Assembly: GCF_024436035.1 (NCBI RefSeq)
Contig: NZ_JANFNG010000001.1
Location: 203,689-267,688, forward strand
DNA length: 64,000 nucleotides
Source of the DNA: Streptomyces humicola
Lineage (GTDB): Bacteria > Actinomycetota > Actinomycetes > Streptomycetales > Streptomycetaceae
Direction of reading: 5' to 3'
Made by a program: the position numbers and the translations under genes. The notes below the pieces were generated by a model. It saw nothing but the letters and a program-made list of their open reading frames with translations, was not told where the DNA came from and made no database searches. Position 1 is the stretch's first letter. The number at the start of each line of letters is the position of its first letter. Shown here one piece after another: positions 8,357 to 42,182 of this stretch.

Positions 8357-8468
8357 GCTGGCATCGTAGACGCCTCAGCAGTCAATGCATCAACTCCGGT
8401 AACACCGCGAACGAAGTGATCTGCGCCATGTCCGCGTGGACGGGGCTTGTGCAAGGCATGCGTCTCAG

Positions 8469-8492
8469 ATTTACTAGGGCTTCCTAGTAAAT
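8469..8492. promoter_or_regulatory. Perfect palindromic operator upstream of the mutase gene
   Basis: Two 10-base arms (ATTTACTAGG and CCTAGTAAAT) separated by GCTT form a perfect inverted repeat about 160 bases before the IcmF start. It is AT-rich against a very GC-rich background. Size and symmetry suit a TetR-family repressor of acyl-CoA metabolism. No cognate regulator gene is adjacent. Confidence 0.65.
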
Positions 8493-8653
8493 CAACGTAC
8501 GGTCACTACCTGGTCACGCCGGTGGCGGATGGCCGCTCGTGTGGTCCCGCGACGTGTTGCTCACTGTCTTGGTGTGGGGGCCACGGTCCGTTGTGGTTTC
8601 CAGGAGCTGGATGCGCCTACTGCCGTCGCGGCAGGGGCTGTTTGGAGGACACC

Positions 8654-11905: not shown

Positions 11906-12015
11906 ACCCGGCCGGGCCCTCCGGCGCAAAGGAATGACAGGTTGAGTCCCAGTAGGGCTTCGAAGAGCGCCTTCCGAGGTGCCTGAGGTCGCGTGGGTTG
12001 ACGAGGAGACACGCT

Positions 12016-12801: not shown

Positions 12802-12869
12802 ACCGCGCACTCCTTCCGCCGCCCTGACCAACCCCCTTCACACGCCTTTATTCGCAGGAGAGCAATCCC

Positions 12870-13832
12870 ATGGGTGCAGTCCTCGTCTACGTCGACCAGG
12901 TGGACGGTGCCGTCCGCAAGCCGACCCTTGAACTACTGACCTTGGCCCGGCGGATCGGTGAGCCGGTCGCCGTGCACCTCGGCCCGGGTGCCGAGGTGGC
13001 TGCCTTGGTGCTGGCCGAGCACGGCGCGGCCCGAGTGCTCGCCGCGGAGGCGCCGGAGTTCGCCGAGTACCTGGTGGTGCCGAAGGTGGACGCGCTGGAG
13101 GCGGCGGCCAAGGCCATGAACCCGGTGGCGGTTTTGGTCCCGTCCTCCGGTGAGGGTAAGGAGATTGCCGCCCGCCTGGCGGTGCGCCTGGGGTCCGGCA
13201 TTATCACCGATGCCGTGGACCTGGAGGCCGGTGTTGACGGCCCCGTCGCGACCCAATCCGTCTTCGCTGCATCGTTCACCACCAAGTCCCGTGTCACCAA
13301 GGGCACTCCGGTGATCACGGTCAAGCCAAACTCGGCGACCCCGGAGCAGGCGCCGGCCGCCGGGGCCGTCGAGCCGCTGACGGTGGCCTTCGGCGATGCG
13401 GCGAGGGGCGCGAGGGTGGTGTCCCGCAGTCCGCGTGAGTCGACCGGGCGTCCGGAGTTGACCGAGGCCGCGATCGTGGTCTCCGGTGGGCGTGGTGTCG
13501 GCGGTGCGGAGAACTTCTCCGTCATCGAGAGGCTGGCGGATTCGCTCGGCGCGGCGGTGGGTGCCTCGCGCGCCGCGGTGGACGCTGGCTGGTATCCGCA
13601 CAGCAACCAGGTGGGGCAGACGGGTAAGACGGTCTCGCCGCAACTGTATGTGGCCTGTGGTGTCTCGGGTGCGATTCAGCACCGGGCGGGCATGCAGACC
13701 TCCAAGACGATCGTGGCGGTCAACAAGGACCCGGAGGCCCCGATCTTCGACCTCGTCGACTACGGCGTGGTGGGTGACCTCTTCGAGGCCGTGCCTCAGC
13801 TGACCGAGGAGGTCAAGACCCGCAAGAATTGA
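12870..13832 (+). CDS. etfA: Electron transfer flavoprotein alpha subunit
   Basis: Large ETF subunit, 320 residues. The C-terminal FAD domain carries the hallmark GGRGVGGAENF, the SRAAVDAGWYPHSNQVGQTGK stretch (shown here in part) and VNKDPEAPIFDLVDYGVVGD. The ATG at 12870 has AGGAGA at 12856. The remains of a regulator gene begin directly after the stop, so the 3' flank looks rearranged while etfA itself is complete. Confidence 0.95.
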   Translation: MGAVLVYVDQVDGAVRKPTLELLTLARRIGEPVAVHLGPGAEVAALVLAEHGAARVLAAEAPEFAEYLVVPKVDALEAAAKAMNPVAVLVPSSGEGKEIAARLAVRLGSGIITDAVDLEAGVDGPVATQSVFAASFTTKSRVTKGTPVITVKPNSATPEQAPAAGAVEPLTVAFGDAARGARVVSRSPRESTGRPELTEAAIVVSGGRGVGGAENFSVIERLADSLGAAVGASRAAVDAGWYPHSNQVGQTGKTVSPQLYVACGVSGAIQHRAGMQTSKTIVAVNKDPEAPIFDLVDYGVVGDLFEAVPQLTEEVKTRKN

Positions 13833-13849
13833 ACGCATCCGAGAGCGGA

Positions 13850-14340
13850 CGTGATCCTTGTCGTGCCGAGTTCCCGGCGAAAGAGCCTGCTGAAGTGCCG
13901 TGTGCTGAAGCCGGCACGGCGGGCCATGGCATCCAGGCTCTGGGGGGCACGGGGATCGGCTGCCATGGCATCCATCACCTGCCCGTACTGCGGGTGCTTC
14001 GCCTGGCGCGGGCTCAGACGAGCGCTGAGCTGGGACTGCCCCCCCGGGGCGGGCCATGAAAACGACGAGCTGTCGTGCCACGCTGCGCGCCTTGTCAGCT
14101 CCGTGGTCCTTTTCGACCAGCGCGAGTGTCAGGTCGATGCCTGAGGTGACGCCGGCGGAGGTTGAGACGTTGCCGTCTGTGACGAACAACGGGTCGGCCT
14201 CGACCTGGACCTTCGGATAGGCCGTTTCCAGCTCCCGGGCCAGTTCCCGGTGCGTGGCGGCCCGCCGGCCGTCCAGCACACCGGTCTCGGCCGGCACAAA
14301 CGCCCCGGAACACACGGAGATGACGCGCCTGCAACGCGGT
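13850..14340 (-). pseudogene. GlxA-type (DJ-1/PfpI + AraC) regulator remnant, truncated at both ends and frameshifted
   Basis: Minus-strand translation shows the middle of a DJ-1/PfpI-like domain (RRVISVCSGAFVPAETG; GVTSGIDLTLALVEKDHG), then the linker and the first half of an AraC helix-turn-helix (LDAMARRAGFSTRHFSRLF). The two parts are in different frames. Removing one base from the run of seven C at 14039-14045 joins them (ARPGG then QSQLSARLSPRQA). The N-terminal third is missing, and the C-terminus stops after ELGTT, where the etfA end begins. It cannot make a working regulator. Confidence 0.8.
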
Positions 14341-24360: not shown

Positions 24361-25962
24361 TTGTTCCAAGCCGACAAATGGTGGCGCGGCGCCGCGATCT
24401 ACCAGGTCTACGTGCGCAGCTTCGCCGACGCGGACGGCGATGGCGTAGGCGATCTGGCGGGAGTCCGCTCCCAGCTGCCCTACCTGGCCGAACTCGGCAT
24501 CGACGCCCTCTGGTTCAACCCGTGGTATGCCTCGCCCATGGCCGACGGAGGCTACGACGTGGCCGACTACCGCGCCATCCACCCCACCTTCGGAACCCTG
24601 GCCGAGGCCGAGCGGCTGATCGCGGAGGCACTTGAGCACGGCATCCGTACCGTCGTCGACATCGTCCCCAACCACGTATCCGACCAGCACCGCTGGTTCC
24701 AGGAGGCCCTGGCCGCGCGACCCGGATCACCGGAACGGGAACGGTTCTGGTTCCGCGAAGGCCGCGGCGAGCACGGCGAACGTCCCCCCAACAACTGGAC
24801 CTCCCAGTTCGGAGGCTCCGCCTGGACCCGGGTTCCCGACGGCCAGTGGTATCTGCACCGCTTCGCCCCCGGCCAGCCGGACCTCAACTGGCAGCATCCC
24901 GAGGTGCGCAAGGAGCACGAGGAGGTGCTTCGCTTCTGGTTCGATCGCGGTGCAGCCGGCGTCCGCATCGACTCCGCCGCCGAGCTCGTGAAGGACCCGG
25001 AGCTGCCCGACCTCGTCGAGAGCACCGAACCGCACCCCTACCTCGACCGCGACGAGATCCACGACGTCTACCGGTCCTGGCGAAAGCTCGCGGACTCCTA
25101 CGCCCAGCCGCGCGCCCTGATCGGCGAGGTCTGGCTTGCCGACCCCGGACGCTTTGCCCGCTATCTGCGCCCCGACGAACTGCACACCGCCTTCAACTTC
25201 GGCTTCCTGACGTGCCCGTGGAACGCCGAGCGGCTCCGAGACGTCATCGCGACGACGCTGGCCGTGCACGCACCGGTCGGCGCCCCCGCGACCTGGGTTC
25301 TGGCCAACCACGACATCACCCGCACCGTCACCCGCTACGGGCGCGCCGACACGGGCTTCGACTTCGCGGCCAAGGCTCACGGCATCCCGACCGACCTGGG
25401 GCTCGGCACCCGCCGGGCCCGTGCCGCGGCGCTGCTGAGCCTCGCCCTTCCCGGTTCCGTCTACCTGTACCAGGGCGAGGAGCTCGCGCTGCCCGAGATC
25501 GAGGACCTGCCCGCCGAAGTCATCGAGGACCCGATGTTCCATCGCACGGGAGGCAGCGACCCCGGCCGTGACGGCTGCCGCGTGCCGCTGCCCTGGCGAG
25601 GGGACACGGCGCCCTTCGGTTTCAGCCCCGTGCCTGTCACCACCTGGCTGCCGCAGCCCGCTGACTGGGGCACGCTGACCGTCGAGCTCCAGCAGCGCGA
25701 CCCGCAGTCGATGCTGAACCTGTACCGCGCGGCCTTGCGGCTGCGGCGCAGCGAACCTGCCCTCGGCGACGGGCAGCTGGCCTGGCTCCCCAGCGGCAGT
25801 CAGGCGCTGGCGTTCGCACGCTCGCCACGGTTTGCCTGCGTCGTCAACCTCGGTACCAGCCCCGTCTGTCTTCCCGCTCACGACCGGGTGCTTCTCTCCA
25901 GCGGGAAGCTTTTCGACGGACGGCTGCCCCCCGATACCGCAGTCTGGCTGCGCCTTGCCTGA
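24361..25962 (+). CDS. Alpha-glucosidase, GH13 (oligo-alpha-glucosidase)
   Basis: A 533-residue cytoplasmic enzyme that hydrolyses alpha-glucosidic bonds of small oligosaccharides. The TTG at 24361 has AAGGAG upstream. Conserved regions are GIDALWFNPWYASPMADGGY, DIVPNHVS, GVRIDSAAE (nucleophile Asp204), LIGEVW (acid/base Glu256) and ANHDITR (Asp318). No signal peptide is present, so it acts on imported sugars delivered by the preceding transporter. With the secreted glucanase upstream, nigerose-type alpha-1,3 oligomers are plausible substrates; maltose or isomaltose types cannot be excluded. Confidence 0.92.
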   Translation: MFQADKWWRGAAIYQVYVRSFADADGDGVGDLAGVRSQLPYLAELGIDALWFNPWYASPMADGGYDVADYRAIHPTFGTLAEAERLIAEALEHGIRTVVDIVPNHVSDQHRWFQEALAARPGSPERERFWFREGRGEHGERPPNNWTSQFGGSAWTRVPDGQWYLHRFAPGQPDLNWQHPEVRKEHEEVLRFWFDRGAAGVRIDSAAELVKDPELPDLVESTEPHPYLDRDEIHDVYRSWRKLADSYAQPRALIGEVWLADPGRFARYLRPDELHTAFNFGFLTCPWNAERLRDVIATTLAVHAPVGAPATWVLANHDITRTVTRYGRADTGFDFAAKAHGIPTDLGLGTRRARAAALLSLALPGSVYLYQGEELALPEIEDLPAEVIEDPMFHRTGGSDPGRDGCRVPLPWRGDTAPFGFSPVPVTTWLPQPADWGTLTVELQQRDPQSMLNLYRAALRLRRSEPALGDGQLAWLPSGSQALAFARSPRFACVVNLGTSPVCLPAHDRVLLSSGKLFDGRLPPDTAVWLRLA

Positions 25963-26006
25963 TGGGGCGCGGCCAGACCGCATGGGGCGCCCGCGCGTCC
26001 GTACAA

Positions 26007-26043
26007 CTGACGCTTGAGTCAGCTCAAACTCCTCAAACGTCAG
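26007..26043 (+). terminator. Hairpin after the alpha-glucosidase gene
   Basis: CTGACGCTTGAG at 26007-26018 pairs with CTCAAACGTCAG at 26032-26043 (12 base pairs with one G-U). It lies 45 bases beyond the operon's last stop codon. Confidence 0.6.
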
Positions 26044-26327
26044 CGCGCGGTCGGCCCCTCCGGGCCGAACCGCACCTCGGTGGAGTCCTCGTCCGACCAG
26101 CCGACCCGCACCCCGTCCGGCAGCGCCTCCGCGGTGGCCATCCCGGCCAGCGCCGGCTGCTCCGGATCCGAGCTGAGACAGGCCAGCTCGGCGAGGGCCG
26201 AGCCGCCCGAGGACGTGATCTCCCCGGTCAGCCGCGGCACCAGCGCCCAGCCCCCGAACGCGGTGCCCTTGGGGCGACGACGAAGGCCCGCTGAGCCGAG
26301 CGCCCACCACAGGCCAAGCCACAGCAT
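26040..26327 (-). other. Unassigned open frame, possible gene remnant
   Basis: A 95-codon minus-strand frame with a plausible protein-like second half (LTGEITSSGGSALAELACL; LPDGVRVGWSDEDSTEVRF). It looks like the last beta-rich part of a larger protein whose front is missing. I do not recognise the family, and there is no clear ribosome site. It may also be non-coding. Confidence 0.25.
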
Positions 26328-26381
26328 GCCCTACCGCTCCCGGCGGCGCATCACCTGCCGACCGGCCGCGCCCTACCACGC

Positions 26382-28131
26382 TCAACGAACGACGAGGCGC
26401 GGCGCCGCGCTTCGCGGGAGCCAGACGGGTTGGTTGCTGCCACGGGGAACCAGGACGGTCCGGAAGCGGCCGGGGGTGCGAGACATGACGACCTGGTCGG
26501 TGACGCCCTGGTAGTGGCCGCAGGGGGTGTCGGCGGTGAAGGTGTCGGGGTCGAGGTAGGCGTGCGCGGAGTCGCGTCCGCCGGTGCCGGCGATCTCGTG
26601 GGCGTAGGCGCGGTCGAAGACGCCGAGGCTGAGGATCCACGCGGAGACGCGGCTGAGGTTGAGGGTGACGCGGTAGCTGCCGCCTTCGGTGGCGCGGCGC
26701 ATCAGTTGCGGCGATGATGCCGGTGGTGGCGAGCCAGGACAGTACGTAGTCGTTGACGACGCTGATGGCGGGCAGCGCGGGCACGCCGTTCTCGCCCTCG
26801 GCGAGCATGATGCCGCTGAGGGCCCCGGCGGTCTGGTCGAAGCCGACGCGCTTCGCCCAGGGGCCGGTCTCGCCCGCCAGGGAGATGCTGACGTGAATGA
26901 TGCCGGGGCGGATGGCGGCGGCTTCCTCGGCGCTCAGGCCGATCTTTTCCAGGTAACCGGGGCGGCGGTTGGCGTGGAAGGTGTCCGCCTCGCGCAGCAG
27001 TTCGCGGATACGGGCTCGGCCCTCGGGGCCGTAAGGGTCGATGGTGGCAGAGCGGACGCCGACGTTGGCGGTGTAGTAGGTGACGTCGTGCTCCAGTTCG
27101 CCTGGTCGCCACAGGTTGAGCACGTCGGCGCCGTGGTAGGCGAGATCGCGGCCGATACCGGCACCGGCGATGACGTGGCCCATGCCCAGCGCGCGCACGC
27201 CGGACAGCGGTTGGGTGGCGCCGGCGGGCAGCGGCTCCGGCTCGCTGTCACCTATCTTGTCGATCTGGATCAGGGGCGCGTGGGCGATGTGGTCCTCATA
27301 GGCCGGTTCGGCCAGGAACTCCTCGGTGGTGCGCAACATCGGCATGACGACGCCGAGTTCATCGCCTGCCCGTTCCAGATCGGCCGCGTTCCACGTGCGG
27401 ATGGCGGCGGCGACCGCCTCCTCCTCGGGCCAGGTGCGCAACAGCTTGTAGACCGCGTTCTTGATCTTCGGGTAGGGGTTGAGCGGCATGACCCAGCGGT
27501 CGTCGCGGGTCCGGTAGAACTGGAACCGCAGCGGGTGGCCTGGATCGGCGGGGGTGCCTTGGGGATAGCCGTTGAGCAGCTCCCATTTGTTGTCGTAGAG
27601 CGGGCACAGCCGATGCGGGGCCTTGCGCAGGTCCATGGTGATGTCCTGGCCCTCGCCGGTGCGGCTGCGCCACAGTGCGGCCAGGGCGGCGGACTTGGCA
27701 GTAATGCCGAGCGCCGGGACGGCGCCGAGGCGCATGACGCTGGGCACGATGGGGTCGGCGCCCAGGAAGGTGATCTTTCCGCCGGTGTCCTCGGGGCGCA
27801 GGCAGACCTCGGCGAGCACGTCGCGCAGGGCTTGGTGGATGTCGATGGCCGGGTTGTACTCGCCGCGCTCGCCCTCGTATTCGACGGCGGCGACGTGCCC
27901 GGCCTCGGTGTAGTCGCCGAGCCCCGTCACATCCGGCATGCGCATCACCTCGAACCGCACCAGCGGCTCGACCACCCGCAGGGGTTCCGGCACCAGGCGC
28001 GTGAGCGCCTCGGGGTCGGTTCGGTAGGTGATGTTCAGGTATTCACGATCTGTGAAGCGGTACCGACCCTTGGGGAAGGCCGGGGCCGCCAGCGGGGTCG
28101 TCGGGACGCGGACCACGTCCTCGGCTCGCAT
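26382..28131 (-). pseudogene. Chimeric gene: acetoacetate decarboxylase N-terminus fused to CaiB/BaiF CoA-transferase, with a frameshift
   Basis: From the ATG at 28131 the first ~92 residues are a clear acetoacetate decarboxylase N-terminus (FPKGRYRFTDREYLNITYRT; VPEPLRVVEPLVRFEVMRMP; GLGDYTEAGH). It stops before the Schiff-base lysine region. The frame runs on into a family III CoA-transferase (PAIDIHQALRDVLAEVCL; GEGQDITMDLRKAP; VRALGMGHVIAGAGIGRDLA; RRPGYLEKIGLS). Near 26706 one extra base (an A on the coding strand, TT at 26706-26707) shifts the frame; the C-terminal 106 residues (RRATEGGSYRVTLNLSRVSA to 26382) are in the next frame. Without that base the product would be about 582 residues. 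The MarR gene is divergent. Confidence 0.75.
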
Positions 28132-28207
28132 GGCTGTCACCTGCCTTGGTGCGGTGGTCCCACCGGATCCCGGTGAAGCCCCGCAGGTTGGTTTCACATC
28201 CGTACGA

Positions 28208-28222
28208 GTTGCATTTTGCAAC
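28208..28222. promoter_or_regulatory. Small palindrome in the CoA-transferase promoter region
   Basis: GTTGCA-TTT-TGCAAC is a perfect 6+3+6 inverted repeat 77 bases upstream of the chimeric CoA-transferase start, in an AT-rich patch. It is a plausible site for the divergent MarR regulator. Confidence 0.4.
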
Positions 28223-28462
28223 CACGACGAGGGGGCACGTGCAAAGCTCTGTGATGAAAGCCTCATTCCTGGGCGAAACACCAGGTCATGGACTGCTACA
28301 TGCAGGGCACACAGGGTGCCGGGCCGACCGCGCCCCCCGCATGAGCGCGCACCCACCCCGCCGTAGCAGCGCCGCAGGTCAGCCCGCGCCCGCGGAGGCG
28401 CTCTGTGTACGACGGCCGACCCCGTCTGGCACCGTTGAACAGCGGGAGCCCCTCCCGCCCTG

Positions 28463-28472
28463 CAACTAGTTG
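28463..28472. promoter_or_regulatory. Small palindrome before the MarR gene
   Basis: CAACTAGTTG, a perfect 10-base palindrome, lies 25 bases before the MarR start codon, where an autorepressor would bind. It shares the CAAC/GTTG half-site with the palindrome at 28208. Confidence 0.4.
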
Positions 28473-28496
28473 TCGAATGCACCCGAAGGAGCGAGC

Positions 28497-28967
28497 GTGA
28501 GCGCCGACCCAGACGTGACCCAAGGGGTGGTCCGGGAGCTGGTGAACCTCTCACGACGATTCCGGACCAACGCCGACCGACTCCACCCGGAGCTGGGCTT
28601 CGTCGACTACTCGCTGCTCACTCAGATGGCCCAGCCGGGCGGCGTCCGAGCGGGGGACCTGGTCCATCTGACCGGACTGAACAAGTCCACGATCAGCCGC
28701 CAGCTCGCCGCCCTCCAGCGTGCCGGGCTCGTCGTAAGGGAGTTGCACCCCCAGGACAACCGCGTTCAACTCCTGCGGCCGAGCGAGCGCGGACGACAGC
28801 TGCTGGCACTGGCGAACACCCGGATGGAACACGAAGTGTCCCATCGCACCCACGGCTGGACCTCGCAGGAGGTCGACACCTTCCGTACCCTTCTCGCTCG
28901 CTACAACGCGGCCACCTCCCCGGCAGCCGATCCACAGGAGAACGATCGTCACCGGCCTGGACGCTGA
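28497..28967 (+). CDS. MarR-family transcriptional regulator
   Basis: A 156-residue winged helix-turn-helix protein. The DNA-recognition part is RAGDLVHLTGLNKSTISRQL, followed by the wing (VVRELHPQDNRVQLLRPSERG). The GTG at 28497 has AAGGAG at the right distance; the upstream in-frame TTG at 28470 would run through the palindrome and is less likely. It is divergent from the CoA-transferase gene, so repression relieved by an aromatic acid or acyl-CoA ligand is the expected logic. Confidence 0.88.
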   Translation: MSADPDVTQGVVRELVNLSRRFRTNADRLHPELGFVDYSLLTQMAQPGGVRAGDLVHLTGLNKSTISRQLAALQRAGLVVRELHPQDNRVQLLRPSERGRQLLALANTRMEHEVSHRTHGWTSQEVDTFRTLLARYNAATSPAADPQENDRHRPGR

Positions 28968-29372: not shown

Positions 29373-30818
29373 TCAAGGAGTGGAGAGCAGCCGGGCCGCC
29401 GTCTCGACATCCGTGGTCAGCTGGCGGTCGGCGACCGAGGAGTCCAGCAGTTCGGTGGCTTGGTCGAAGAATGCGCGCAGTTCACCGTCGCCCGCCGGGA
29501 CGAGACCGCGCATGCGCAGAGCGCGGACCGCCGCGACCAGTTCGCAGGCGAGCACCAGCCGGAAGTAGCCGACGGACTCCAGCAGGCGCCGCGCGCCGGT
29601 GGAGGCGAAGCTGGCGTGCTCCTCCACTCCGCGCGATATCACCGCATGGCCCAGCATGACGGGCTGGGCGGCACCGCGCAGCTCGGCCAGTGCCGACTGC
29701 GCGGCGTACTCGGTGATCATGACGCCGCTGCTGCCGTTCTCGCCGTCGGCGAGGAAGGGCGGCAGGCCGGTGAAGGCGGGTTCGACGAGAATACCGAGCC
29801 GGGTGGTGGACAGCTCCGCCGTGCCCAGCAGTCCCAGCCGGAACTGGTCGAGCGCCAGGGCCAGCCGGGCCAGGTGGAAGCCGCCGTGGTGGTGGTAGTC
29901 GGCCGCGTCCACGTTGACCAGCGGGTTCTCCGCGGCGGCGTTGATCTCGACAGTGAGTACCTGGTCGAGTGAGGACCAGGCGTCCAGCGCCGTACCATGA
30001 ACCTGCGGCAGGCAACGCAGCCCGAACGGGTCCTGCACCAGTTGGGGCACCCAAGCCGCAGGAGCCATCAGCTCGCGCATCCGCGCGGCGAGCAACTGGG
30101 CCCCTGGATAGGGGCGTTGGGCGTGCACGTATTCGGCGAATGGCTCGAGTGAGCCCTGCAAGGCCGTGAGGGTCAGCCCGGCGACCAGGGGGACCCCGTC
30201 CAGCAGCAGCTTGAGATCGGTGATGGCGAGGGCGGCCTGACCGATCGTCAGTGCGTTGCTGGACATCAGCGGCAGTGCGTCCCAGCGGGTCAGCGTGACC
30301 GGCTCGGGGGCGGGGCCGGGGCCGCCTCGCCAGGGCAGCTCGCCGGCGAGGGTCAGGCCGAGTTCGGCGAGTGCGGACAGGTCGCCGGTGCCGATCGCGC
30401 CGAGCGAGTGGACGGTGGGCAGGTGTCCGCTGGTCAGGGCCTCGGCGATACGGTCGATTACGGCGGCGTTTATGGCGGTGCCCCCGTTGAGGAGTTGGTT
30501 GAGCCGGACGACGAGCATCGCCCGGGTCTCCTCGTCCGGTGCGATCGGGCCTATGCCGCCGCTGTGGCTTCGCAGCAGCCGCATGCCGAAGGTGTTCACG
30601 TCCGAGTCGGGAACCGCTGTCGTCCGGTTGGCGCCCACGCCTGTGGAGTAGCCGTAGACCGGGCGGCGCTCGATGGCGCGTTCGGCGATCTCCCGGGCCT
30701 CTCGGACCCGTCTGCGGGCTTTGGGGTCGACGAGGGCGAGGGCCTCGCGGCGGGCGAGGGAGGTGACCTGGTCCGAGCTCAAGGACCTGCCGTCAAGGAT
30801 GAGGTGATTGCCTGCCAT
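29373..30818 (-). CDS. Aromatic amino acid lyase-like protein (HAL/PAL family) with altered MIO triad
   Basis: A 481-residue member of the histidine/phenylalanine ammonia-lyase family, which removes ammonia from an amino acid using the MIO group built from Ala-Ser-Gly. Here the triad is Gly143-Thr144-Gly145 (LGAIGTGDLSALAELG). The catalytic tyrosine is kept (PVYGYSTGVGANR, Tyr55). Also kept are the QDPFGLRCLPQVHG segment and the NPLVNVDAADYHHHGGFH region. The start codon overlaps the stop of the MFS gene upstream by one base, so it is co-translated with a transporter. Substrate and even lyase activity are uncertain because the serine that forms MIO is a threonine. Confidence 0.82.
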   Translation of the reverse strand: MAGNHLILDGRSLSSDQVTSLARREALALVDPKARRRVREAREIAERAIERRPVYGYSTGVGANRTTAVPDSDVNTFGMRLLRSHSGGIGPIAPDEETRAMLVVRLNQLLNGGTAINAAVIDRIAEALTSGHLPTVHSLGAIGTGDLSALAELGLTLAGELPWRGGPGPAPEPVTLTRWDALPLMSSNALTIGQAALAITDLKLLLDGVPLVAGLTLTALQGSLEPFAEYVHAQRPYPGAQLLAARMRELMAPAAWVPQLVQDPFGLRCLPQVHGTALDAWSSLDQVLTVEINAAAENPLVNVDAADYHHHGGFHLARLALALDQFRLGLLGTAELSTTRLGILVEPAFTGLPPFLADGENGSSGVMITEYAAQSALAELRGAAQPVMLGHAVISRGVEEHASFASTGARRLLESVGYFRLVLACELVAAVRALRMRGLVPAGDGELRAFFDQATELLDSSVADRQLTTDVETAARLLSTP

Positions 30819-32176
30819 CAGTGGTGCCAGTCCTCCGCGGTGAGGGTGTTGCGGGTCTCCGGTGCCCACGCGAGGCTGACCAGCGTGCCGAGCAGCAGCA
30901 CGGCCGCCATCCAGCCCATTGACCAGCCGACGCCGATCTGGTCGAGGCTGACGGGCAGGACGAAGGTGCCGATCGCGGAGGCGACCCGGCTGGTGCCGTT
31001 GAGGAAGCCGACGCCGGAGCCGCGCAGCGAGGTGGGGAAGAGTTCGGGCGGGTAGACCTGGGTGATGTTGGAGGCGCCGGCCATGACGAAGGTGTAGACG
31101 ATGAAAGGAACCATGAGCGCCCAGCCGGAGGCGCTGTTGAGCAGTGCCATCGCGCCCAGACAGACTGCGAGGATTGCGAAGGTCCAGATGGTGAAGGGCC
31201 GGCGGCCCATCCGTTGCACCGGCCATAGTCCGATGATCCCTCCCAGCAGCAGTGCCAGATTGAGCACCAGGTTCTGGGTGTTGGCGTCGGAGACATGCAG
31301 GGTGCTGAGGATCTGTGCCATGAAGGTGTAGATGGCGAAGTAGGGCAGTACCTGGGCGCTGTAGAAGATGACGCCGAACCAGGTCTTGGTGGCCTGTCCG
31401 TGGGCGAAGAGCTCGCGGTAGCCGGCGGTGGGCGGCTGCTCGGCGGCCGCGGCCTCGGCCTCCTCAGCGGTGGCGGTGGTCTGTCCCAGGTGGGTGCGGC
31501 GGATCTCGGCGGCCTCGGCAGCCCTGCCGCGCGTGGCGAGCCAGCTGGGGGATTCGGGGATGCCGATGCGGAGCACCAGCACCAGCAGTGCGGGGAGTGC
31601 GCCGCTGGCGAGCAGCCAGTGGGCGGCATTGTCGGTGATGGGGATGTAGGTGCCCAGAATGTTGGCGAGCACGTAGCCGACGGTCCACAAGACGGTGAGC
31701 GAGCCGAGCAGGACGCCGCGCAGCCGCTGGGGGGCGAACTCAGAGAGCAGGGTGGGGCCGACGGCGTAGTCCGCGCCGAGTCCGAAGCCGATGACCAGGC
31801 GGAGCAGGAAGAGGATGAGCGGGGTATGGGCCCAGAACTGGGCGGCCGAGGCGACGGCGATGAGGGCGAAGTTGTACAGGTACAGCTTCTGGCGTCCGAT
31901 CGCGTCGGCGACTCGGCCCAGGAGGATGCTGCCGAAGAACAGTCCGATCAGTGCGGAGGCGCCGAGCAGTCCTTGCCAGAGGCCGGATAGATGCATGGTC
32001 GTGCCGAGGACGGGGAGGACTGCGCCGATGATGCCGAGGGCGTAGCCGTCGGAGAAGTTGGCGCCGAAGGTGGTGGCGGTCACCCGCAGGTGGAAGGCGG
32101 TGAGGCGTTCGCGTTCGGTGGTGTCGGACGGGTTCGCCGAAGGCGGGCTGACGGCCCTGGCCGCGTTGGATGTCAT
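30818..32176 (-). CDS. MFS transporter, sugar/aromatic acid type
   Basis: A 452-residue, 12-helix uptake transporter of the SP/AaHS kind. Motif A appears as LLGRVADAIGRQK and again near residue 280 as the mid-loop repeat. The segment GFGLGADYAVGPTLLSEFAP and the PESPSWLATRGRA motif are typical. The ATG at 32176 is preferred over an upstream frame extension without homology. It is the first gene of a coupled pair with the lyase-like gene. A second MFS of the same class lies immediately upstream, so the island may import two related substrates. Confidence 0.87.
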   Translation of the reverse strand: MTSNAARAVSPPSANPSDTTERERLTAFHLRVTATTFGANFSDGYALGIIGAVLPVLGTTMHLSGLWQGLLGASALIGLFFGSILLGRVADAIGRQKLYLYNFALIAVASAAQFWAHTPLILFLLRLVIGFGLGADYAVGPTLLSEFAPQRLRGVLLGSLTVLWTVGYVLANILGTYIPITDNAAHWLLASGALPALLVLVLRIGIPESPSWLATRGRAAEAAEIRRTHLGQTTATAEEAEAAAAEQPPTAGYRELFAHGQATKTWFGVIFYSAQVLPYFAIYTFMAQILSTLHVSDANTQNLVLNLALLLGGIIGLWPVQRMGRRPFTIWTFAILAVCLGAMALLNSASGWALMVPFIVYTFVMAGASNITQVYPPELFPTSLRGSGVGFLNGTSRVASAIGTFVLPVSLDQIGVGWSMGWMAAVLLLGTLVSLAWAPETRNTLTAEDWHH

Positions 32177-32443
32177 ACATGACTCCCGGCAGATGAGGTC
32201 CTGGGTGGCCGACAGCATGCATGAAATTCAACAGTCAAACAATAGGTTGATTGAAATATCTCATTCAGTGAACGGCGGCGAGGGCGCCGCTTCCGGCACC
32301 CCCGACTGAGGGCCGGTCGGGCGCGGTTCGAGCTCGGATGTGCGCCCGAGGCCCAAGAGAGCGTCGCGACACGGCCCACAGCCGGCGCGGCATAAGGCCG
32401 CACCGGCTGTTGAGGTACCGATTCCCGCGCGATCGAGGCGCGG

Positions 32444-33796
32444 TCAGCTGCGGGTGTGAGCGGCGCGGGCCGCTTGGGCGAGGTCGAGGTCGGTGGTCTC
32501 GGGGGCGAGGAAGTGGGAGACGAGGCCGCCGAGGGCCAGCACACCGGCCCCGACGAGGAGGACGAACTCGACGCCGAAGTGGCTCAGGCCCATGGGGAGC
32601 AGGAAGGTACCGATGGCGGCGCCGACGCGGCTCATGGCGGCCGCGAAGCCAACGCCCGTCGACCGCATGGAGGTGGGGAAGACCTCCAGGGGGTAGACGG
32701 CGGTCAGCGCGCTGGAGGCGGCGTTGAGGAAGATGAAGAAGAGGAAGCCGCCGACGATGACTGCCGTGGAGCGGGGCCACACGGCGACCAGGGCGAGGCA
32801 GGCGGCGGTGACCCAGAACGGTGGGACCAGCAGCTTGCGCCGGCCGATGCGGTCGACGATCAGGCAGCCGGCGGTGACGCCGAGCACCGCGGTGACCGAG
32901 TAGATCAGCAGTGCGGCGGTGGCGTTGCCACCCATGCCGAGGGCGTCGAAGACCTGCGTCCAGAAGGTGCCGATCGCGAAGTACGGCAGTACCAGGCAGG
33001 CCCAGAAGGTGCCGGCGAAGATCGTGCCGCGGATGTGCTTGCGGGCGAAGAGCGCACGCAGGCTGTTCTGCCGTTCGCCGTCGGCGAGTTCGGTCTCGAC
33101 ATCGACCTCGATGTCGTATCTGGCTATCAGCTCTTGGGCCTCCTCGCGGCGCCCTTTGCTGAGCAGCCAGCGGGCCGACTCGGGGACACCGCCGCGCAGC
33201 GCCACGCAGACGACCGCGATGACGGCGCTGCTCGCCAGCGACCAGCGCCAACCGCCGTGGACACCGGCGAACGCCGCGCCGACCACGGTGGCGAGCATGT
33301 AGCCGACGTACCAGCTGATCTCCAGACTGGCCAGCAGGCGACCGCGGTTGTGGCGTGGCGCGTATTCGGACAGCAGCGGCGCGCCGATGGCGTATTCGCC
33401 ACCGATGGCTATTCCCATCATCAGGCGGATTGCGATGAGTTGCATGCCGTCGGTGACGAAGAACTGGACGAGGGAGCCGAGGAGGAAGATGAGCATGTCG
33501 ACCAGGAAGACCGGACGCCGTCCGGTCCGGTCGGCGAGCCAGCCGAAGAGCGGTCCGCCGATGAAGATGCCGATCAGCGGTGAGGCGCCGACCAGGCCCT
33601 GATCCAGCGTGGACAGGTGCAGGTCGGCGGTGATGGCGGTCATGGCCATGCCGATGCCGCCGATGATGTAGCCGTCGATGCCCTCCCCGATCTGGGTGGC
33701 GAGCATGAGCTTGGTCTGCAGCCGCTTGCGTTCGCGGGCGGCGGCAGCCGGTTGTTGTTCGGGGAATCTGTCGCCGGTGACGGGCAGCGTTGCCAT
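32444..33796 (-). CDS. MFS transporter, sugar porter type
   Basis: A 450-residue, 12-helix transporter. It has GWLADRTGRRPVFLVDM (motif A), GIAIGGEYAIGAPLLSEYAP, PESARWLLSKGRREEAQELI and CLIVDRIGRRKLLVPPF (second motif A). These mark the sugar porter subfamily, including inositol, sugar-acid and niacin/aromatic acid carriers. It ends 268 bases before the other MFS gene and starts 170 bases after the aldehyde dehydrogenase gene, all on the minus strand. The 32177-32443 gap shows no gene. Confidence 0.87.
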   Translation of the reverse strand: MATLPVTGDRFPEQQPAAAARERKRLQTKLMLATQIGEGIDGYIIGGIGMAMTAITADLHLSTLDQGLVGASPLIGIFIGGPLFGWLADRTGRRPVFLVDMLIFLLGSLVQFFVTDGMQLIAIRLMMGIAIGGEYAIGAPLLSEYAPRHNRGRLLASLEISWYVGYMLATVVGAAFAGVHGGWRWSLASSAVIAVVCVALRGGVPESARWLLSKGRREEAQELIARYDIEVDVETELADGERQNSLRALFARKHIRGTIFAGTFWACLVLPYFAIGTFWTQVFDALGMGGNATAALLIYSVTAVLGVTAGCLIVDRIGRRKLLVPPFWVTAACLALVAVWPRSTAVIVGGFLFFIFLNAASSALTAVYPLEVFPTSMRSTGVGFAAAMSRVGAAIGTFLLPMGLSHFGVEFVLLVGAGVLALGGLVSHFLAPETTDLDLAQAARAAHTRS

Positions 33797-36751: not shown

Positions 36752-37324
36752 ATGCCTTTCGCCCCGACCGCGCTCATCGGCGAATCCTTCGTCGGCGAAG
36801 GACCGAACGCCGCCCACACCAACATCGTGCTCGGGCGCAAGGGCGGCCCGGTGGAGACCGCGTGGGCCACCGCCCTGGCCACGCCGAGCGCCGGGCACGT
36901 CCCCTACGTGACCGTGGTGCGGCCGTCGGTGCCGGTCAAGCCGCTGACGCTGTTCGTCAACAAGGCAGCCGCGGAGGGCGAGTTGCACCAGCGGGCAACC
37001 TGGGGATCGGCCCAGGCGGGACTCGCCCAGGGCATCGCCGACGCCGTCGCCGCGGGGCTCATCCCCGCCGACGAGGCGGACGACCTGCTGATCATCGCCG
37101 CGGTCTGGGTCAACCCGGCGGTGGACGACCTGGACCACTCCTTCCGCAACCAGCGCACCGCCGCCTATCGCGCGGTCCGCGCGGCCGTACAAGCGACGCC
37201 GAGCGCCGGCGATGTCCTGACGGCTGCCGAGGCCGGTCCCGCGAACCCCTTCTACACCCCCGACGCCGAGCAACTCGCCGCCTCCGACCCCGCGGAGACA
37301 GGCCAGGAGGCCCTCGCCCGATGA
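36752..37324 (+). CDS. Formaldehyde-activating enzyme (Fae)-like protein
   Basis: A 190-residue protein of the Fae family, whose known member joins formaldehyde to tetrahydromethanopterin. Family segments are IGESFVGEGPNAAHTNIVLG with the catalytic His22, SAGHVPYVTVVRPSVPVKPL and GLIPADEADDLLIIAAVWVNP. Actinobacteria of this kind are not known to use tetrahydromethanopterin, so the role is open: a different pterin/folate acceptor, formaldehyde scavenging, or another reaction on a carbonyl substrate. The ATG at 36752 follows CAGGAG. Its stop overlaps the ATG of the dehydratase (ATGA at 37321), so it belongs to the catabolic operon. Confidence 0.8.
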   Translation: MPFAPTALIGESFVGEGPNAAHTNIVLGRKGGPVETAWATALATPSAGHVPYVTVVRPSVPVKPLTLFVNKAAAEGELHQRATWGSAQAGLAQGIADAVAAGLIPADEADDLLIIAAVWVNPAVDDLDHSFRNQRTAAYRAVRAAVQATPSAGDVLTAAEAGPANPFYTPDAEQLAASDPAETGQEALAR

Positions 37325-38433
37325 AGATCACCGACATCACCCTGGACCGACTGCGGCTCGAACTCGACCCGCCGTTCCGCGCGGCCTGGGACCCCGAGCC
37401 CCGCCGCCACTTCGACGCCACCGTGGTCCGCGTCCACACCGACGAGGGCATCACCGGCATCGGCTCCGGCGACTCTATGGACGGCTTCGAGACCTACCAG
37501 CACCTCTTTGTCGGCGAGGACCCCCTCGACATCACCCGTCATGTCCGAGCCATCGAAACGGCCAACTTCCACGGGGCCTACTACTGGCCGCTGGAAGCCG
37601 CCCTGTGGGACATCATCGGCAAGGTGCACGGGCGTCCCGTCGCCGAGCTGTTCGGCAACGCCGCCAAGAAGCTCCCCGCGTACGCCTCCTCCGGCGAGCT
37701 CAAGTCGCCCGACGAGCGCGTCGCGACCGCGCTGAAGGTCCGCGAGGCGGGTTTCAGAGCCATGAAGATCCGTATCGACCGGGACCGTGTCGACGAGGGG
37801 ATCGCCGCCGTGCGGGCCGTCCGCGAAGAGCTCGGCGACGACTTCGAGATCATGGTCGACCTCAACCAGTCATGGCGGATGGCCGGGGACACAGCGAACG
37901 CCTCCGACCTCGCCAAGACCCGCAAGACCATCGCGCGCCTCGCCGAACTCGACGTCTTCTGGGTCGAGGAACCACTGCCCTACGCCGACCTCGACGGCTT
38001 CAAACGGCTGCGTGCGGAGAACCCGGGGGTACGGATCGCCGCAGGCGAGATGCACCACTGCACGAGTGAGCTGCTGCGCTATCTCGAAGAGGACGCCCTC
38101 GACATCTACCAGATGGACGTCGTCCTCGCGATCGGCATGCATCGCGCCCGCACCCTGGCCGAATTGGCGCAACTGAAGCACCGTCACTTCACCCCGCACA
38201 GCTGGACCAATGGCATCGGCATCCTCGCCAACCTGCACGTCGCGGCCGGGGTCGGCGGCGGGCCGTACTTCGAATTCCCCTATGACCCGCCCGGCTGGAC
38301 GCCCGAGCGACGCGACTTCATGCTCGCCGAGTCCGTACGGGTGGGCGCCGACGGCGACCTCGAAGTACCGAACAAGCCCGGCCTCGGTGTCGAACTCGAC
38401 GAGGCCGCGATCGACCGCTGGAGGATCCTGTGA
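37321..38433 (+). CDS. Enolase-superfamily dehydratase/racemase (mandelate racemase type)
   Basis: A 370-residue barrel enzyme that abstracts a proton next to a carboxylate. Visible catalytic and metal residues are Lys149/Arg151 (MKIRIDR), Asp180 and Asn182 (MVDLNQSW), Glu216 (WVEEPLP), Glu243 (AAGEMHH) and His293 (FTPHSWTNGIG). This set fits the MR subgroup, most often sugar-acid dehydratases. The gene is coupled on both sides: ATGA with the Fae-like gene and GTGA with the aldehyde dehydrogenase. A sugar acid or an aromatic hydroxy acid is the likely substrate, but I cannot say which. Confidence 0.87.
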   Translation: MKITDITLDRLRLELDPPFRAAWDPEPRRHFDATVVRVHTDEGITGIGSGDSMDGFETYQHLFVGEDPLDITRHVRAIETANFHGAYYWPLEAALWDIIGKVHGRPVAELFGNAAKKLPAYASSGELKSPDERVATALKVREAGFRAMKIRIDRDRVDEGIAAVRAVREELGDDFEIMVDLNQSWRMAGDTANASDLAKTRKTIARLAELDVFWVEEPLPYADLDGFKRLRAENPGVRIAAGEMHHCTSELLRYLEEDALDIYQMDVVLAIGMHRARTLAELAQLKHRHFTPHSWTNGIGILANLHVAAGVGGGPYFEFPYDPPGWTPERRDFMLAESVRVGADGDLEVPNKPGLGVELDEAAIDRWRIL

Positions 38434-39965
38434 CATTCCCCGACGCGACGGACACCGTCCAGGAGCTGCTGACGCGGTCGTACGAGGACTGGCTGGCCGC
38501 TGCCGCCAAACTCTCCTTCGAGACCCGGCTGTTCATCGACGGCGCCTTCATCCGCGCCACCTCCGGCGAGACCTATCAGAGCACCTCCCCGCGCGACGGC
38601 AGCGTCCTCGCCCAGGTGCAGTCCGCCGGTGCCGACGACGTCGACCGGGCGGTGCGCGCCGCCCGCACCGCCTTCGACGACGGCCGCTGGCGCGACCTGC
38701 CGCCCAAGGAGCGCAAGCGGATCCTGCTGCGCTGGGCGGAGCTGATCCTGGCGCACGCCGAGGAGCTCGCCCTGCTCGACACCCTGGAGATGGGCAAGCC
38801 GATCACCGAGTCGGTACGGATCGACGTGGCCAAGGCCGCCGAGACCATCGCGTGGTACGCCGAGGCCATCGACAAGACCTACGACGAGATAGCGCCCACC
38901 CCCGGCGACGCCCTCGCTCTCATCACCCGCGAACCGCTGGGCGTCGTCGGTGCCGTCGTCCCCTGGAACTACGCCCTGCTGATCGCCTCATGGAAGCTGG
39001 CCCCGGCGCTGGCCACCGGCAACAGCGTCGTCCTCAAGCCCGCCGAGCAGACCTCCCTCGCCGCCCTGCTGCTTGCCCGGCTGGCCACCGAGGCCGGAGT
39101 GCCCGACGGCGTGCTCAACGTCGTCCCCGGGCGTGGCGAGATCGCCGGTCAGGCACTCGGGCGCCACCCGGACGTCGACAAGATCGCCTTCACCGGTTCC
39201 GCCGAGGTCGCCCGGCTTTTCCAGGTCTACGCGGGCGAGTCCAACGGCAAGCAAGTCGCCGTGGAAGCGGGTGGCAAGTCCCCGCAACTGGTCCTGCCCG
39301 ACGCCGACATCACCGCCGCCGCGTCCGCCGTTGCCTGGGGCATCTTCTACAACGCCGGTCAGACCTGCAACGCGGGATCCCGGGTCGTCGTCCACGCCTC
39401 CGTCAAGGAGCAGCTGCTCGCCGAGGTCGAGCGGATCACCACACAGACCTTCCGTGTCGGCGATCCGCTCGACCCGGCCACCGTGATGGGCCCGATCGTC
39501 GACGAGGCCCAACTCGCCAAGGTCCTGGGTTACATCGCCGACGGACAGCGGGAGGGCGCCACCGTGGTCCTCGGCGGCGGGCGCACCCGCACCGACTCCG
39601 GCGGCAGCTTCGTGCAGCCGACGGTCCTCGACGGCGTCGCCAACACCTCCGTCGTCGGTCAGGAGGAGATCTTCGGGCCGGTCCTCGCCGTCATCACCTA
39701 TGAAGGGGAGACCGACGAGGGCATCCGGATCGCCAACGAGTCCGCCTTCGGCCTGGTTGCCTCCGTATGGACCCGGGACATTACCACGGCCCACCGGACC
39801 GCCAACCGGTTGCGCGCCGGAACGGTGTGGATCAACACCTTCGACGCCAGCGACGTGATCACGCCCTTCGGCGGCTTCAAGGCCACCGGTGCGGGCCGCG
39901 ACAAGTCACTGCACGCCCTGGACGCCTACACGGCACTCAAGACCACCTGGATCAACCTGGCCTGA
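38430..39965 (+). CDS. NAD(P)-dependent aldehyde dehydrogenase
   Basis: A 511-residue ALDH of the PuuC/betaine-aldehyde type. It carries GAVVPWNYALLIASWKLAPAL, FTGSAEVA, the glutamate in AVEAGGKSPQLV (Ala replaces the usual Leu after Glu), the catalytic cysteine in NAGQTCNAGSRVVV and the C-terminal PFGGFKATGAGRDKSLHALD. The GTG start overlaps the dehydratase stop. As the third gene of the plus arm it probably oxidises the aldehyde left after dehydration and cleavage, or after the alcohol dehydrogenase step. Confidence 0.9.
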   Translation: MTFPDATDTVQELLTRSYEDWLAAAAKLSFETRLFIDGAFIRATSGETYQSTSPRDGSVLAQVQSAGADDVDRAVRAARTAFDDGRWRDLPPKERKRILLRWAELILAHAEELALLDTLEMGKPITESVRIDVAKAAETIAWYAEAIDKTYDEIAPTPGDALALITREPLGVVGAVVPWNYALLIASWKLAPALATGNSVVLKPAEQTSLAALLLARLATEAGVPDGVLNVVPGRGEIAGQALGRHPDVDKIAFTGSAEVARLFQVYAGESNGKQVAVEAGGKSPQLVLPDADITAAASAVAWGIFYNAGQTCNAGSRVVVHASVKEQLLAEVERITTQTFRVGDPLDPATVMGPIVDEAQLAKVLGYIADGQREGATVVLGGGRTRTDSGGSFVQPTVLDGVANTSVVGQEEIFGPVLAVITYEGETDEGIRIANESAFGLVASVWTRDITTAHRTANRLRAGTVWINTFDASDVITPFGGFKATGAGRDKSLHALDAYTALKTTWINLA

Positions 39966-40031
39966 GCGCCAGGCCGCACACCGTCAAACCCTCCCATACT
40001 TCATACTTCTTCAGCCGTAGCGAGGACAACG

Positions 40032-40970
40032 ATGAGGATCGGATTCATCGGCCTGGGCAACATGGGACGTCACATGGCCCGCCACCTGATCCACGCGGGA
40101 CACCTGGTCACCGTGTACGACACCCGGCCCGAGGCCGCCGCCGAGCACCTGTCTCTCGGCGCCCGCTGGGCCGGCAGTCCCGCCGACTGCGCCGCCGACG
40201 CCGAGCTGTTGATCACCATGGTTCCCAACCCCCGCATCGTGGAGGACGTGCTGCTGCGCGGCGGGGCCGCCGAGGCGCTGCCGGAAGGCGCGCTGTGGAT
40301 CGACATGTCGACATCCACCCCGGCGGCAGCCGAACGGGTCGCCGCCGAAGTGCTCGACCGGCGCGGCGTGCGCCGCCTGGACGCCCCCGTCAGCGGTATG
40401 GCCCGCGGCGCCGAGGCCGGCACGCTGCAGATATTCGTCGGAGGCGAGGTGGAGGACTTCCGCATCGCGCTGCCCGTCTTCGAGGCCATGGGCGACCCCG
40501 GCAAGGTGCTGCACGTCGGCCCGCTCGGCGCCGGATACACCGTCAAGCTCATGATCAACCTGCTGTGGTTCAGCCACCTGGTCGCGACATCCGAAGTCCT
40601 CGCCATGGGAGTGAGGGCCGGTGTCGACCTCGGCGTGCTCCGCAACGCCCTGCTCGCGAGCCCCGCCGCCTCCAACTTCCTTGAGAACGACATCATCTGC
40701 GTGCTCGCCGACGGTCACTACGACGACTCCTTCGCCATGGCGCTCGCTTGCAAGGACCTCGGACTGGCCGTGGACCTCGGTCGTGACCTGGGCGTCTCCA
40801 CCGAACTGTCCGCGCTGGTCGAGCAGATCTACCGCCGTTCCAAAGCCCAGCACGGCGAACTCGCCGGCGAGATGAGCCCGATCCGCATCTACGAAGCGCT
40901 GGCAGGACAGGAGTTCCGGCTGCCCAGGCCCACCCACGCGCCGGAAGACGCGGCGCTCAGCGTCATCTGA
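40032..40970 (+). CDS. Beta-hydroxyacid dehydrogenase (3-hydroxyisobutyrate / tartronate semialdehyde reductase type)
   Basis: A 312-residue enzyme of the 3-hydroxyisobutyrate dehydrogenase family. The N-terminal NAD(P) fold starts IGFIGLGNMGRHMARHL. The substrate loop reads DAPVSGMARGAEAGTL, and the catalytic lysine lies in GAGYTVKLMINLL. Such enzymes interconvert a 3-hydroxy acid and a semialdehyde. In sugar-acid pathways they reduce tartronate semialdehyde to glycerate, which would fit the dehydratase context. It starts 66 bases after the aldehyde dehydrogenase. Confidence 0.87.
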   Translation: MRIGFIGLGNMGRHMARHLIHAGHLVTVYDTRPEAAAEHLSLGARWAGSPADCAADAELLITMVPNPRIVEDVLLRGGAAEALPEGALWIDMSTSTPAAAERVAAEVLDRRGVRRLDAPVSGMARGAEAGTLQIFVGGEVEDFRIALPVFEAMGDPGKVLHVGPLGAGYTVKLMINLLWFSHLVATSEVLAMGVRAGVDLGVLRNALLASPAASNFLENDIICVLADGHYDDSFAMALACKDLGLAVDLGRDLGVSTELSALVEQIYRRSKAQHGELAGEMSPIRIYEALAGQEFRLPRPTHAPEDAALSVI

Positions 40971-41018
40971 CCCCTCCACCATCCACCCGCCGCGCTTCCA
41001 GGCCCAGGAGCCGTGATC

Positions 41019-42182
41019 ATGAGCGAGAGCCTCGCCACCGCCCCACTGTCCGTCGAGCCGACCTGCCGCATCGAATTCGGTCCCGGCCGCATCGAGCAAC
41101 TCCCGGATCTGATCGCCGCGATCGGCCGCAGACGTGCCTTCGTCGTCACCGACCGCGGGCTGCGCGCCGCCGGGATCGTCGACCGCGTGCTGAAGGTACT
41201 CGACGGCGCGGGCATGGAATACGGCATCTACGACGAAGTAGGCCCGAACCCCTCGACGGGCAACGTCGACGAAGGCGCCGCCCGTGCCCGTGCCTTCGGC
41301 CCCGCAGCCGTCGTCGCCCTGGGCGGCGGCTCCGCACTCGACGCGGCCAAGGGCATCGCGCTTCTCGTGGGCAACCCCGATGCCATGGCCGCCGACGCCG
41401 ACACGCTGTGGGAGGCCCTCGACGGCCTGCCGCTGGTCGCCGTCCCCACCACCTCCGGCACCGGCGCGGAGACCAACGGATTCGGAGTCATCGAGGACAC
41501 CGCCGCCTGCCGCAAGGTCTACATCGGCCACCCTTCCGTCAAGCCCAGGATCGCCCTCCTGGACCCCGAACTCACCCTCGGTCTGCCCGCCCATGTCACC
41601 GCGGCGACCGGCATCGACGCCCTCGTCCACGGCGTCGAGTCCCTCGCCTCGCGCGGCGCGGACCCGGTCTCCGCCGCATATGCCACGCAGGCCGTGACCA
41701 TGGTCGGCCGCTGGCTGCCCACCGCCTACCGGGACGGCTCCGATCTCGAAGCCCGCGCCCAGCTGATGCTCGGCGCACACCTCGCCGGGCAGGCCCTCAC
41801 CCTCTCCGGCCTGGGCCTGGTCCACGGCATCGGCCACGCTCTCACCGCCCACACCGGCACCCCGCACGGCGTGGCGCTTGCCGCGGTCCTGGAGGAGGTC
41901 ATGGAGTTCAGCGCCCCTGCCGCCCGCGGCGCCTACGAGCAGGCGGCCCGTGCGCTGCGCGTTCCCCCGCCGGCCAACGGCGACTGGTCCCGGGCTGCCA
42001 TCGTCGCCGTCCGGGAGATCTCCGCCGCGATCGGGGTGAAGAAGCCACTGCGCGAGCTGCGTGTCACCCGAGAGCTGCTGCCGTCGATCGCCAGGGGCGC
42101 GGTCGCCGACGCGGTCACCCGCAACAGCCCGCTCCTGCCCACCGAAGAGCAGGTTCTCCAGATCCTGGAGTCGGTCTACTGA
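41019..42182 (+). CDS. Iron-containing alcohol dehydrogenase (group III)
   Basis: A 387-residue metal-dependent dehydrogenase. It has the nucleotide motif GGGSALDAAKGIA, PTTSGTGAETNGFGV, metal ligands in TGIDALVHGVES (Asp, His) and in LVHGIGHALTAHTGTPHG (two His). The ATG at 41019 is chosen over the GTG at 41013 because GGAG lies 8 bases before it. Relatives include 4-hydroxybutyrate, 1,3-propanediol and actinomycete methanol dehydrogenases, and maleylacetate reductase. A formaldehyde/methanol link to the Fae-like gene is possible but unproven. Confidence 0.88.
   Translation: MSESLATAPLSVEPTCRIEFGPGRIEQLPDLIAAIGRRRAFVVTDRGLRAAGIVDRVLKVLDGAGMEYGIYDEVGPNPSTGNVDEGAARARAFGPAAVVALGGGSALDAAKGIALLVGNPDAMAADADTLWEALDGLPLVAVPTTSGTGAETNGFGVIEDTAACRKVYIGHPSVKPRIALLDPELTLGLPAHVTAATGIDALVHGVESLASRGADPVSAAYATQAVTMVGRWLPTAYRDGSDLEARAQLMLGAHLAGQALTLSGLGLVHGIGHALTAHTGTPHGVALAAVLEEVMEFSAPAARGAYEQAARALRVPPPANGDWSRAAIVAVREISAAIGVKKPLRELRVTRELLPSIARGAVADAVTRNSPLLPTEEQVLQILESVY

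Follow-up and report, generated by a model that had tools for sequence, protein, structure and literature searches.

What reaction, if any, does a histidine ammonia-lyase homologue catalyse once its MIO triad has been altered? The question is raised by one gene in a 64,000-nucleotide stretch of Streptomyces humicola DNA, referred to here as the window, whose features are collected in Table 1. Sequences for comparison came from a set of 150 relatives, 394 genomes of the class, a related-locus search and plasmid records.

Table 1. Coordinates, in the window, of the lyase gene, its landmark residues and the adjoining transporter genes
Feature	Position	Strand	Basis
Lyase-family protein, 481 aa, putative MIO-less	29373..30818	(-)	ORF and PF00221 match
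Glu399-Glu400	29619..29624	(-)	E399 in 58/58 clade rows; E400 in 49/58, D400 in 9/58
HHGGF, residues 310-314	29877..29891	(-)	HHGGF in 47/58 clade rows
QDPFGLRC, residues 262-269	30012..30035	(-)	Q262, D263 and R268 in 58/58 clade rows
Gly-Thr-Gly, codons 143-145 (GAIG-TGDL, shortened MIO loop)	30384..30392	(-)	Alignment with MIO enzymes
His85 codon	30564..30566	(-)	H in 56/58 clade rows, gap in 2
Tyr55 codon	30654..30656	(-)	Y in 56/58 clade rows, gap in 2
MFS transporter gene	30818..32218	(-)	Stop overlaps lyase start (TGATG)
Second MFS transporter gene, paralogous	32444..33796	(-)	Family match

The lyase and its shortened loop

The window lyase matches Pfam model PF00221 (Lyase_aromatic) with 371.6 bits (E 6.8e-111) over profile positions 1-449 of 466. 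Against the hutH equivalog model TIGR01225 it scores 295.5 bits, below the curated cut-off of 539.15, and a lyase of the same clade from Arthrobacter scores 248.5 bits. The genome contains one further member of the PF00221 family, a HutH, which reaches 641 bits in the part tested, above the TIGR01225 cut-off, and carries Cys-Ser-Gly in its loop. The preliminary description had reported that Tyr55 and the QDPFGLRC segment are kept, and both were seen. Tyr55 presumably stands in the place of the catalytic tyrosine of HAL (Tyr53 in Pseudomonas putida), and His85 in that of HAL His83, with a role in ring recognition; we take Arg268 to correspond to HAL Arg283, which binds carboxylate, and Glu399-Glu400 to correspond to the E-D pair in the HAL Glu414 region. 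The clade thus belongs to the same family as HutH and keeps the equivalents of Tyr53, His83, Arg283 and Glu414, but it is without Ala/Cys-Ser-Gly, falls below the TIGR01225 cut-off and, in the window's genome, exists beside a separate HutH.

The preliminary description read the MIO triad as replaced by Gly-Thr-Gly. Residues 143-145 are indeed Gly-Thr-Gly, but the exchange is not one for one. The window segment GAIG-TGDLSAL is one residue short when set against that of the HutH from the same genome, GSLGCSGDLAPL, with GAIG-TGDL pairing with GSLGCSGDL; a change of Ala to Gly and Ser to Thr therefore hinges on the placement of the gap, and the first Gly of GTG can equally be assigned to the Gly just ahead of the MIO triad. 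The window lyase has neither an x-Ser-Gly triad (the first residue being Ala or Cys in the MIO rows seen) nor a loop of full length, and the shortened loop of the clade is devoid of serine and cysteine.

The same one-residue gap is found in the ergothionase of Treponema denticola (structure 6s7j, the second-best solved relative of the window lyase), whose loop reads SSIG-EGDI. All 56 readable clade rows share the deletion with this ergothionase, and none of nine MIO rows has it. Relatives of ergothionase are gapped as well, with A (Polaromonas), E (Paracoccus saliphilus and Burkholderia arboris) or Q (Sinorhizobium meliloti) in the place of the threonine. Two rhizobial/Paracoccus groups also have a shortened loop, with A where the clade has T, and a different lyase, at locus L143 in a relative of the window, has the shortened loop G-ASD. 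If the cofactor is absent as proposed, this one-residue signature would tell MIO-less from MIO lyases; four shortened-loop proteins (L078, L083, L089 and L091) are labelled histidine ammonia-lyase in their records and have no serine triad. A still shorter loop, GSVG---YL, occurs in a Burkholderia cenocepacia family member (L084, 5001-6449) that branches beside the MIO enzymes.

A threonine in the triad had been expected to give either a methylated MIO or none, and it is the second of these that the loop favours. A modified, methylated MIO made from Gly-Thr-Gly would find those three residues literally in place, but the loop is one residue short and lacks Ser and Cys, 13 of the 56 readable rows carry Ala in third position, and ergothionase is equally shortened, with Glu; we give this reading next to no credence. 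A short loop without serine, fixed in a clade as it is in ergothionase, points instead to a MIO-less lyase, and judged from its residues the window loop should not form the MIO cofactor. AlphaFold2, run on the window protein and three relatives, gave a model with pLDDT 38.3 and pTM 0.42, from which no conclusion was drawn.

Conservation and spread of the clade

The preliminary description proposed looking for a G-T-G clade by alignment and suggested that it might form a subfamily with chemistry of its own. An actinomycete clade was found, in which 56 of the 58 rows of the final alignment read G-T-[G/A]-D, the third place being Gly in 43 and Ala in 13. The two exceptions, L003 and L062, have frame changes inside the gene; tblastn pieces read GTGD for L003 and GTAD for L033, which denotes the same place as L062. 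Loci L005 and L069 are absent from the 58-row alignment, L069 having been read in an earlier one. Random changes at the triad were not seen, its form being fixed in the clade, and dN/dS values of 0.10-0.29 in seven close pairs indicate purifying selection.

Conservation extends to the rest of the putative active site. Tyr55 and His85 are unvarying in the 56 clade rows that cover them, and E297, H310 and G312, like the residues listed as complete in Table 1, are present in 58 of 58. Residues 297-299 read ENP in every clade row (58/58) and DNP in every other row (20/20), while at residues 310-314 most MIO rows have S-x-G-N-F and the clade has H-x-G-x-x, with forms other than HHGGF in 11 of 58 rows.

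Two trees, built with the loop columns left out, each support the clade at 100/100. The first was made without the partial rows L003 and L062, and the second with 35 of the 58 clade rows and without the HALs of P. putida and Thermoplasma. The ergothionase group is supported at 100/99 in the first tree and 100/100 in the second and stands apart from the window's clade; in neither tree does the window lyase group with T. denticola ergothionase. On the second tree a single change separates the MIO and shortened-loop states, and the first agrees by eye; both are unrooted, so that they give this one change and leave aside the ancestral loop state and the sister groups. The proposal of a distinct subfamily is thus upheld by the tree support, the fixed triad and the selection values, and the clade probably has a chemistry different from that of HAL.

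Clade members were found in at least 29 of the 394 genomes of the class, under seven family codes, at E <= 1e-65. The count is a lower bound because genome G047 missed the cut-off although it supplies a clade row, L073.

Transporters and hut genes beside the lyase

Neighbouring genes were clustered with a simple GC3-based gene picker, over neighbourhoods of at most about 9-10 kb on each side, some of them ended by contig ends. The names of hut and ABC genes were first set by similarity and then checked, and all held.

In the window the lyase start codon (ATG, 30818-30816) shares one base with the stop codon of an MFS transporter gene (TGA, 30820-30818). At five related loci (L038, L039, L042, L043 and L044) a same-strand MFS gene, encoding a product 69-82% identical to the window's, also overlaps the lyase; with the window itself, six of its subclade's 14 rows have this arrangement. 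Locus L047 retains a 41-residue MFS remnant, and no such MFS gene was found beside the lyase in the other seven rows. The second, paralogous MFS gene of the window was seen beside the lyase in none of the relatives compared. An OpuC-type ABC permease was detected by tblastn in 34 of 57 clade neighbourhoods, tblastn being used for this count because the ATPase cluster of the gene picker mixes unrelated ABC ATPases. The coupling to a transporter described earlier is borne out by these neighbourhoods.

The binding protein linked to this ABC transporter belongs to the OpuAC family, and its nearest solved relatives include Lmo1422 (BilEB), ProX, EgtUC and engineered choline and nicotine sensors. 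Lmo1422 is reported to bind ergothioneine (PMC9732360). None of 18 linked binding proteins has an intact trimethylammonium cage: Tyr111 of AfProX is replaced by Asp in 18 of 18, Tyr214 by Glu (9), Gln (6), Ala (2) or Gly (1), Tyr190 by Phe in 18 of 18, and Tyr63 is Tyr (14) or Phe (4). A phmmer comparison of the L122 binding protein with EgtUC showed the loss of the same two tyrosines. The partner genes of the relatives thus have an OpuAC binding protein in common with the EgtU/OpuC-type quaternary amine ABC transporters, but differ from these in that two of the four cage tyrosines are replaced (18/18), that binding protein and permease are encoded by separate genes and that some of the binding proteins are apparently circularly permuted. 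A cage altered in this way leaves room for a ligand other than a quaternary amine, perhaps a protonated one; sites that combine an acid with aromatic residues are known for quaternary amines too. The ABC transporter is far commoner than the lyase, occurring in 141 of the 394 genomes where the lyase was counted in at least 29, and at four loci chosen for the transporter (L151-L154) the stretch fetched held no clade lyase. In a cluster of seven loci, OpuAC-like proteins (L060 4651-5613, L061 14021-14989 and L063 4174-5130) have the motif of the second subdomain, GGPPE[FL], ahead of that of the first, VGSANF, and from this order they look circularly permuted.

A hutU gene is present in 13 of 57 clade neighbourhoods, distributed over six groups (g9 of f1; f2; g124 of f19; g86 of f20; g59 of f28; Arthrobacter), and in none of the other 44, which include all of the window's own subclade. 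Direct gene rows with hutU occur at L054, L127/L128 and L159. On a plasmid of Arthrobacter sp. StoSoilB13 (L075/L159), genes for an IclR regulator, an ATPase, two permeases, a binding protein, HutU and the lyase follow one another on a single strand in a span of about 8 kb, and M20 and hutF genes lie divergently next to them; over 40 kb of this plasmid a hutH query matched the lyase alone and a hutI query matched nothing. Locus L054 has ABC, hutU, M20, hutF and hutI in one row opposite the lyase, and L127/L128 have hutH, hutU, M20, hutF and hutI in one row with the lyase at its end. Six of the 13 hutU loci belong to one genus, with hutU 6-8 kb off and other genes between; in L122, L123 and L133 the distance is about 8 kb. 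Five of the clade-linked hydratases (L122, L075, L133, L127 and L054) score 875-929 bits as HutU, against a cut-off of 375, and fall below both thiourocanate hydratase cut-offs. Queries for hutU, hutI, hutF and egt genes had no match in the window's 64 kb, so that the hut link of the window lyase is drawn from its relatives; elsewhere the genome carries single hutH, hutU and egtD-family genes. In Paracoccus saliphilus, hutU has an ergothionase-group lyase as its neighbour, and the hut cluster they belong to includes hutH as well.

In L122/L123, which come from one genus, egtD, egtC, egtB and egtA follow the lyase cluster. The row hutH-ABC-LacI-egtDCB at L152 has both the ABC transporter and egt genes without the lyase; the egt neighbourhood was accordingly given little weight and may be inherited synteny. 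A triplet of genes, LacI, amidohydrolase-like and cysteine-dioxygenase-like, adjoins some clade lyases. The amidohydrolase-like gene, named from its letters, has no Pfam or NCBIfam match; it occurs together with the lyase in 15 genomes, the lyase being counted in 29 of 394 and the gene in 27 of 394 when the lists are taken as one draw. The triplet was dropped as a pathway partner: eleven loci fetched for the amidohydrolase-like gene (L144-L150 and L155-L158) had no clade lyase in the stretch. At L143 the G-ASD lyase lies between an ornithine cyclodeaminase-family gene (PF02423) and the amidohydrolase-like gene (10567-14044), and an ABC transporter of the same type is divergent from its row (6899-10396).

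Candidate reactions

Ergothionase offers the closest parallel. It is described in a 2026 report (PMC13405746) as working without the MIO cofactor and splitting ergothioneine into trimethylamine and thiourocanic acid. The T. denticola enzyme (6s7j/6s7q) shares with the clade the PF00221 family, the loop shortened by one residue and S-x-N-A where MIO enzymes have N-G-T. The clade differs from it in having Thr in the loop, where T. denticola ergothionase has Glu and its group Glu, Gln or Ala, in reading ENP instead of DNP and H-x-G-x-F instead of xxANF, in forming a separate clade, and in that the hydratases linked to the relatives are HutU and not thiourocanate hydratase. The ergothionase structure was reportedly published by Maurer in 2019. 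This parallel and the hutU linkage go beyond the preliminary description.

Loss of the electrophile with retention of the Tyr, Arg and His residues suggests that the beta-proton is still taken and that a leaving group better than ammonia is needed. From the linkage to hutU the product is probably urocanate, and the substrate accordingly a modified histidine with an easier leaving group. By analogy with ergothionase, that group would be trimethylammonium. We lean, if only slightly, towards a MIO-less lyase acting on a histidine derivative, most likely hercynine (N-alpha-trimethylhistidine), with urocanate and trimethylamine as products; hercynine is favoured because it fits both the ergothionase chemistry and the identity of the hydratases as HutU. 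Several results speak against this reading: the altered cage of the binding proteins, which slightly lowers the odds of trimethylamine; the ABC transporters that occur without the lyase; the 44 neighbourhoods without hutU and the loci where hutU is kilobases away; the Thr in place of the Glu, Gln or Ala of the ergothionase group; and the failure of the hutI query on the Arthrobacter plasmid. As judged from the family, Tyr55 would take the beta-proton, Arg268 would hold the carboxylate and His85 would face the ring, while the alpha-substituent would leave without electrophilic help and urocanate would then enter the ordinary Hut pathway. The wider proposal, that the actinomycete MIO-less family and several other shortened-loop groups convert hercynine to urocanate and trimethylamine and so feed HutU, is more tentative and falls somewhat short of an even chance.

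The leaving group might instead be something other than trimethylamine, with urocanate or another aryl acrylate made by a MIO-less lyase from, for example, a histidine that is N-hydroxylated, oxygen-linked or substituted in some other way. Such a reading would suit the binding proteins, in which one cage tyrosine is always Asp (18/18) and another mostly Glu or Gln, a site fitter for a protonated than for a quaternary amine; it would also accommodate the use of an MFS transporter by part of the window's subclade and the residues peculiar to the clade, namely Thr144, ENP and, mostly, HHGGF. Against it, no other histidine derivative known to us combines a good leaving group with an abundance in soil like that of hercynine. 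Ergothionase, the MIO-less member that has been characterised, is moreover reported to give off trimethylamine (PMC13405746). We hold it to be rather unlikely.

That ergothioneine itself is the substrate, the clade being a divergent ergothionase that yields thiourocanate and trimethylamine, seems improbable: the shortened loop common to both, the egt operon adjoining the lyase in L122/L123 and the presence of EgtUC and Lmo1422 among the solved relatives of the binding protein all agree with it, but the linked hydratases tested score as HutU and not as thiourocanate hydratase, and the two groups stand apart with support of 100/100 each. Still smaller is the chance of a non-catalytic paralogue with a binding or regulatory role. 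Cofactor loss and the frame-changed copies in a few draft genomes (L003, L005 and L062) would be natural in such a protein; the invariance of Tyr55, His85, Gln262, Arg268 and Glu399 in the rows that cover them, the low dN/dS in all seven pairs and the gene rows with transporter and hutU argue otherwise.

For the favoured hercynine reaction, the type of chemistry is already known from ergothionase; what differs is the clade, its loop residue, its partner genes and its likely product. A literature search returned no paper on a hercynine lyase or on hercynine breakdown, and none of the titles and abstract openings listed concerned this clade, which is weak evidence of novelty, most subscription papers having been outside its reach. 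If the assignment is correct, hercynine breakdown gains a named enzyme, MIO-less lyases extend past ergothionase, and histidine breakdown acquires a second, MIO-free entry that joins the ergothioneine-family betaines to glutamate.

Other genes were noticed around these lyases. Two rhizobial shortened-loop lyases (L083 3847-7142 and L091 3847-7147) have an ornithine cyclodeaminase-family gene on one side and a PhnD/SsuA-type binding protein on the other, flavin oxidoreductases being encoded upstream, and the ergothionase-group lyase of Sinorhizobium meliloti (L078 7929-12912) is near an annotated dimethylsulfoniopropionate lyase gene and an ABC transporter. In the window itself, CoA-transferase-like letters, read by eye, run across shifted, overlapping frames at 24727-28554, as if a gene had been broken, and a MarR-type gene (28470-28967) adjoins them. 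Farther along, at 36752-42182, a gene for formaldehyde-activating enzyme (Fae, PF08714, E 1.1e-51) is followed by enolase-superfamily, aldehyde dehydrogenase, 3-hydroxyisobutyrate-dehydrogenase-like and iron alcohol dehydrogenase genes.
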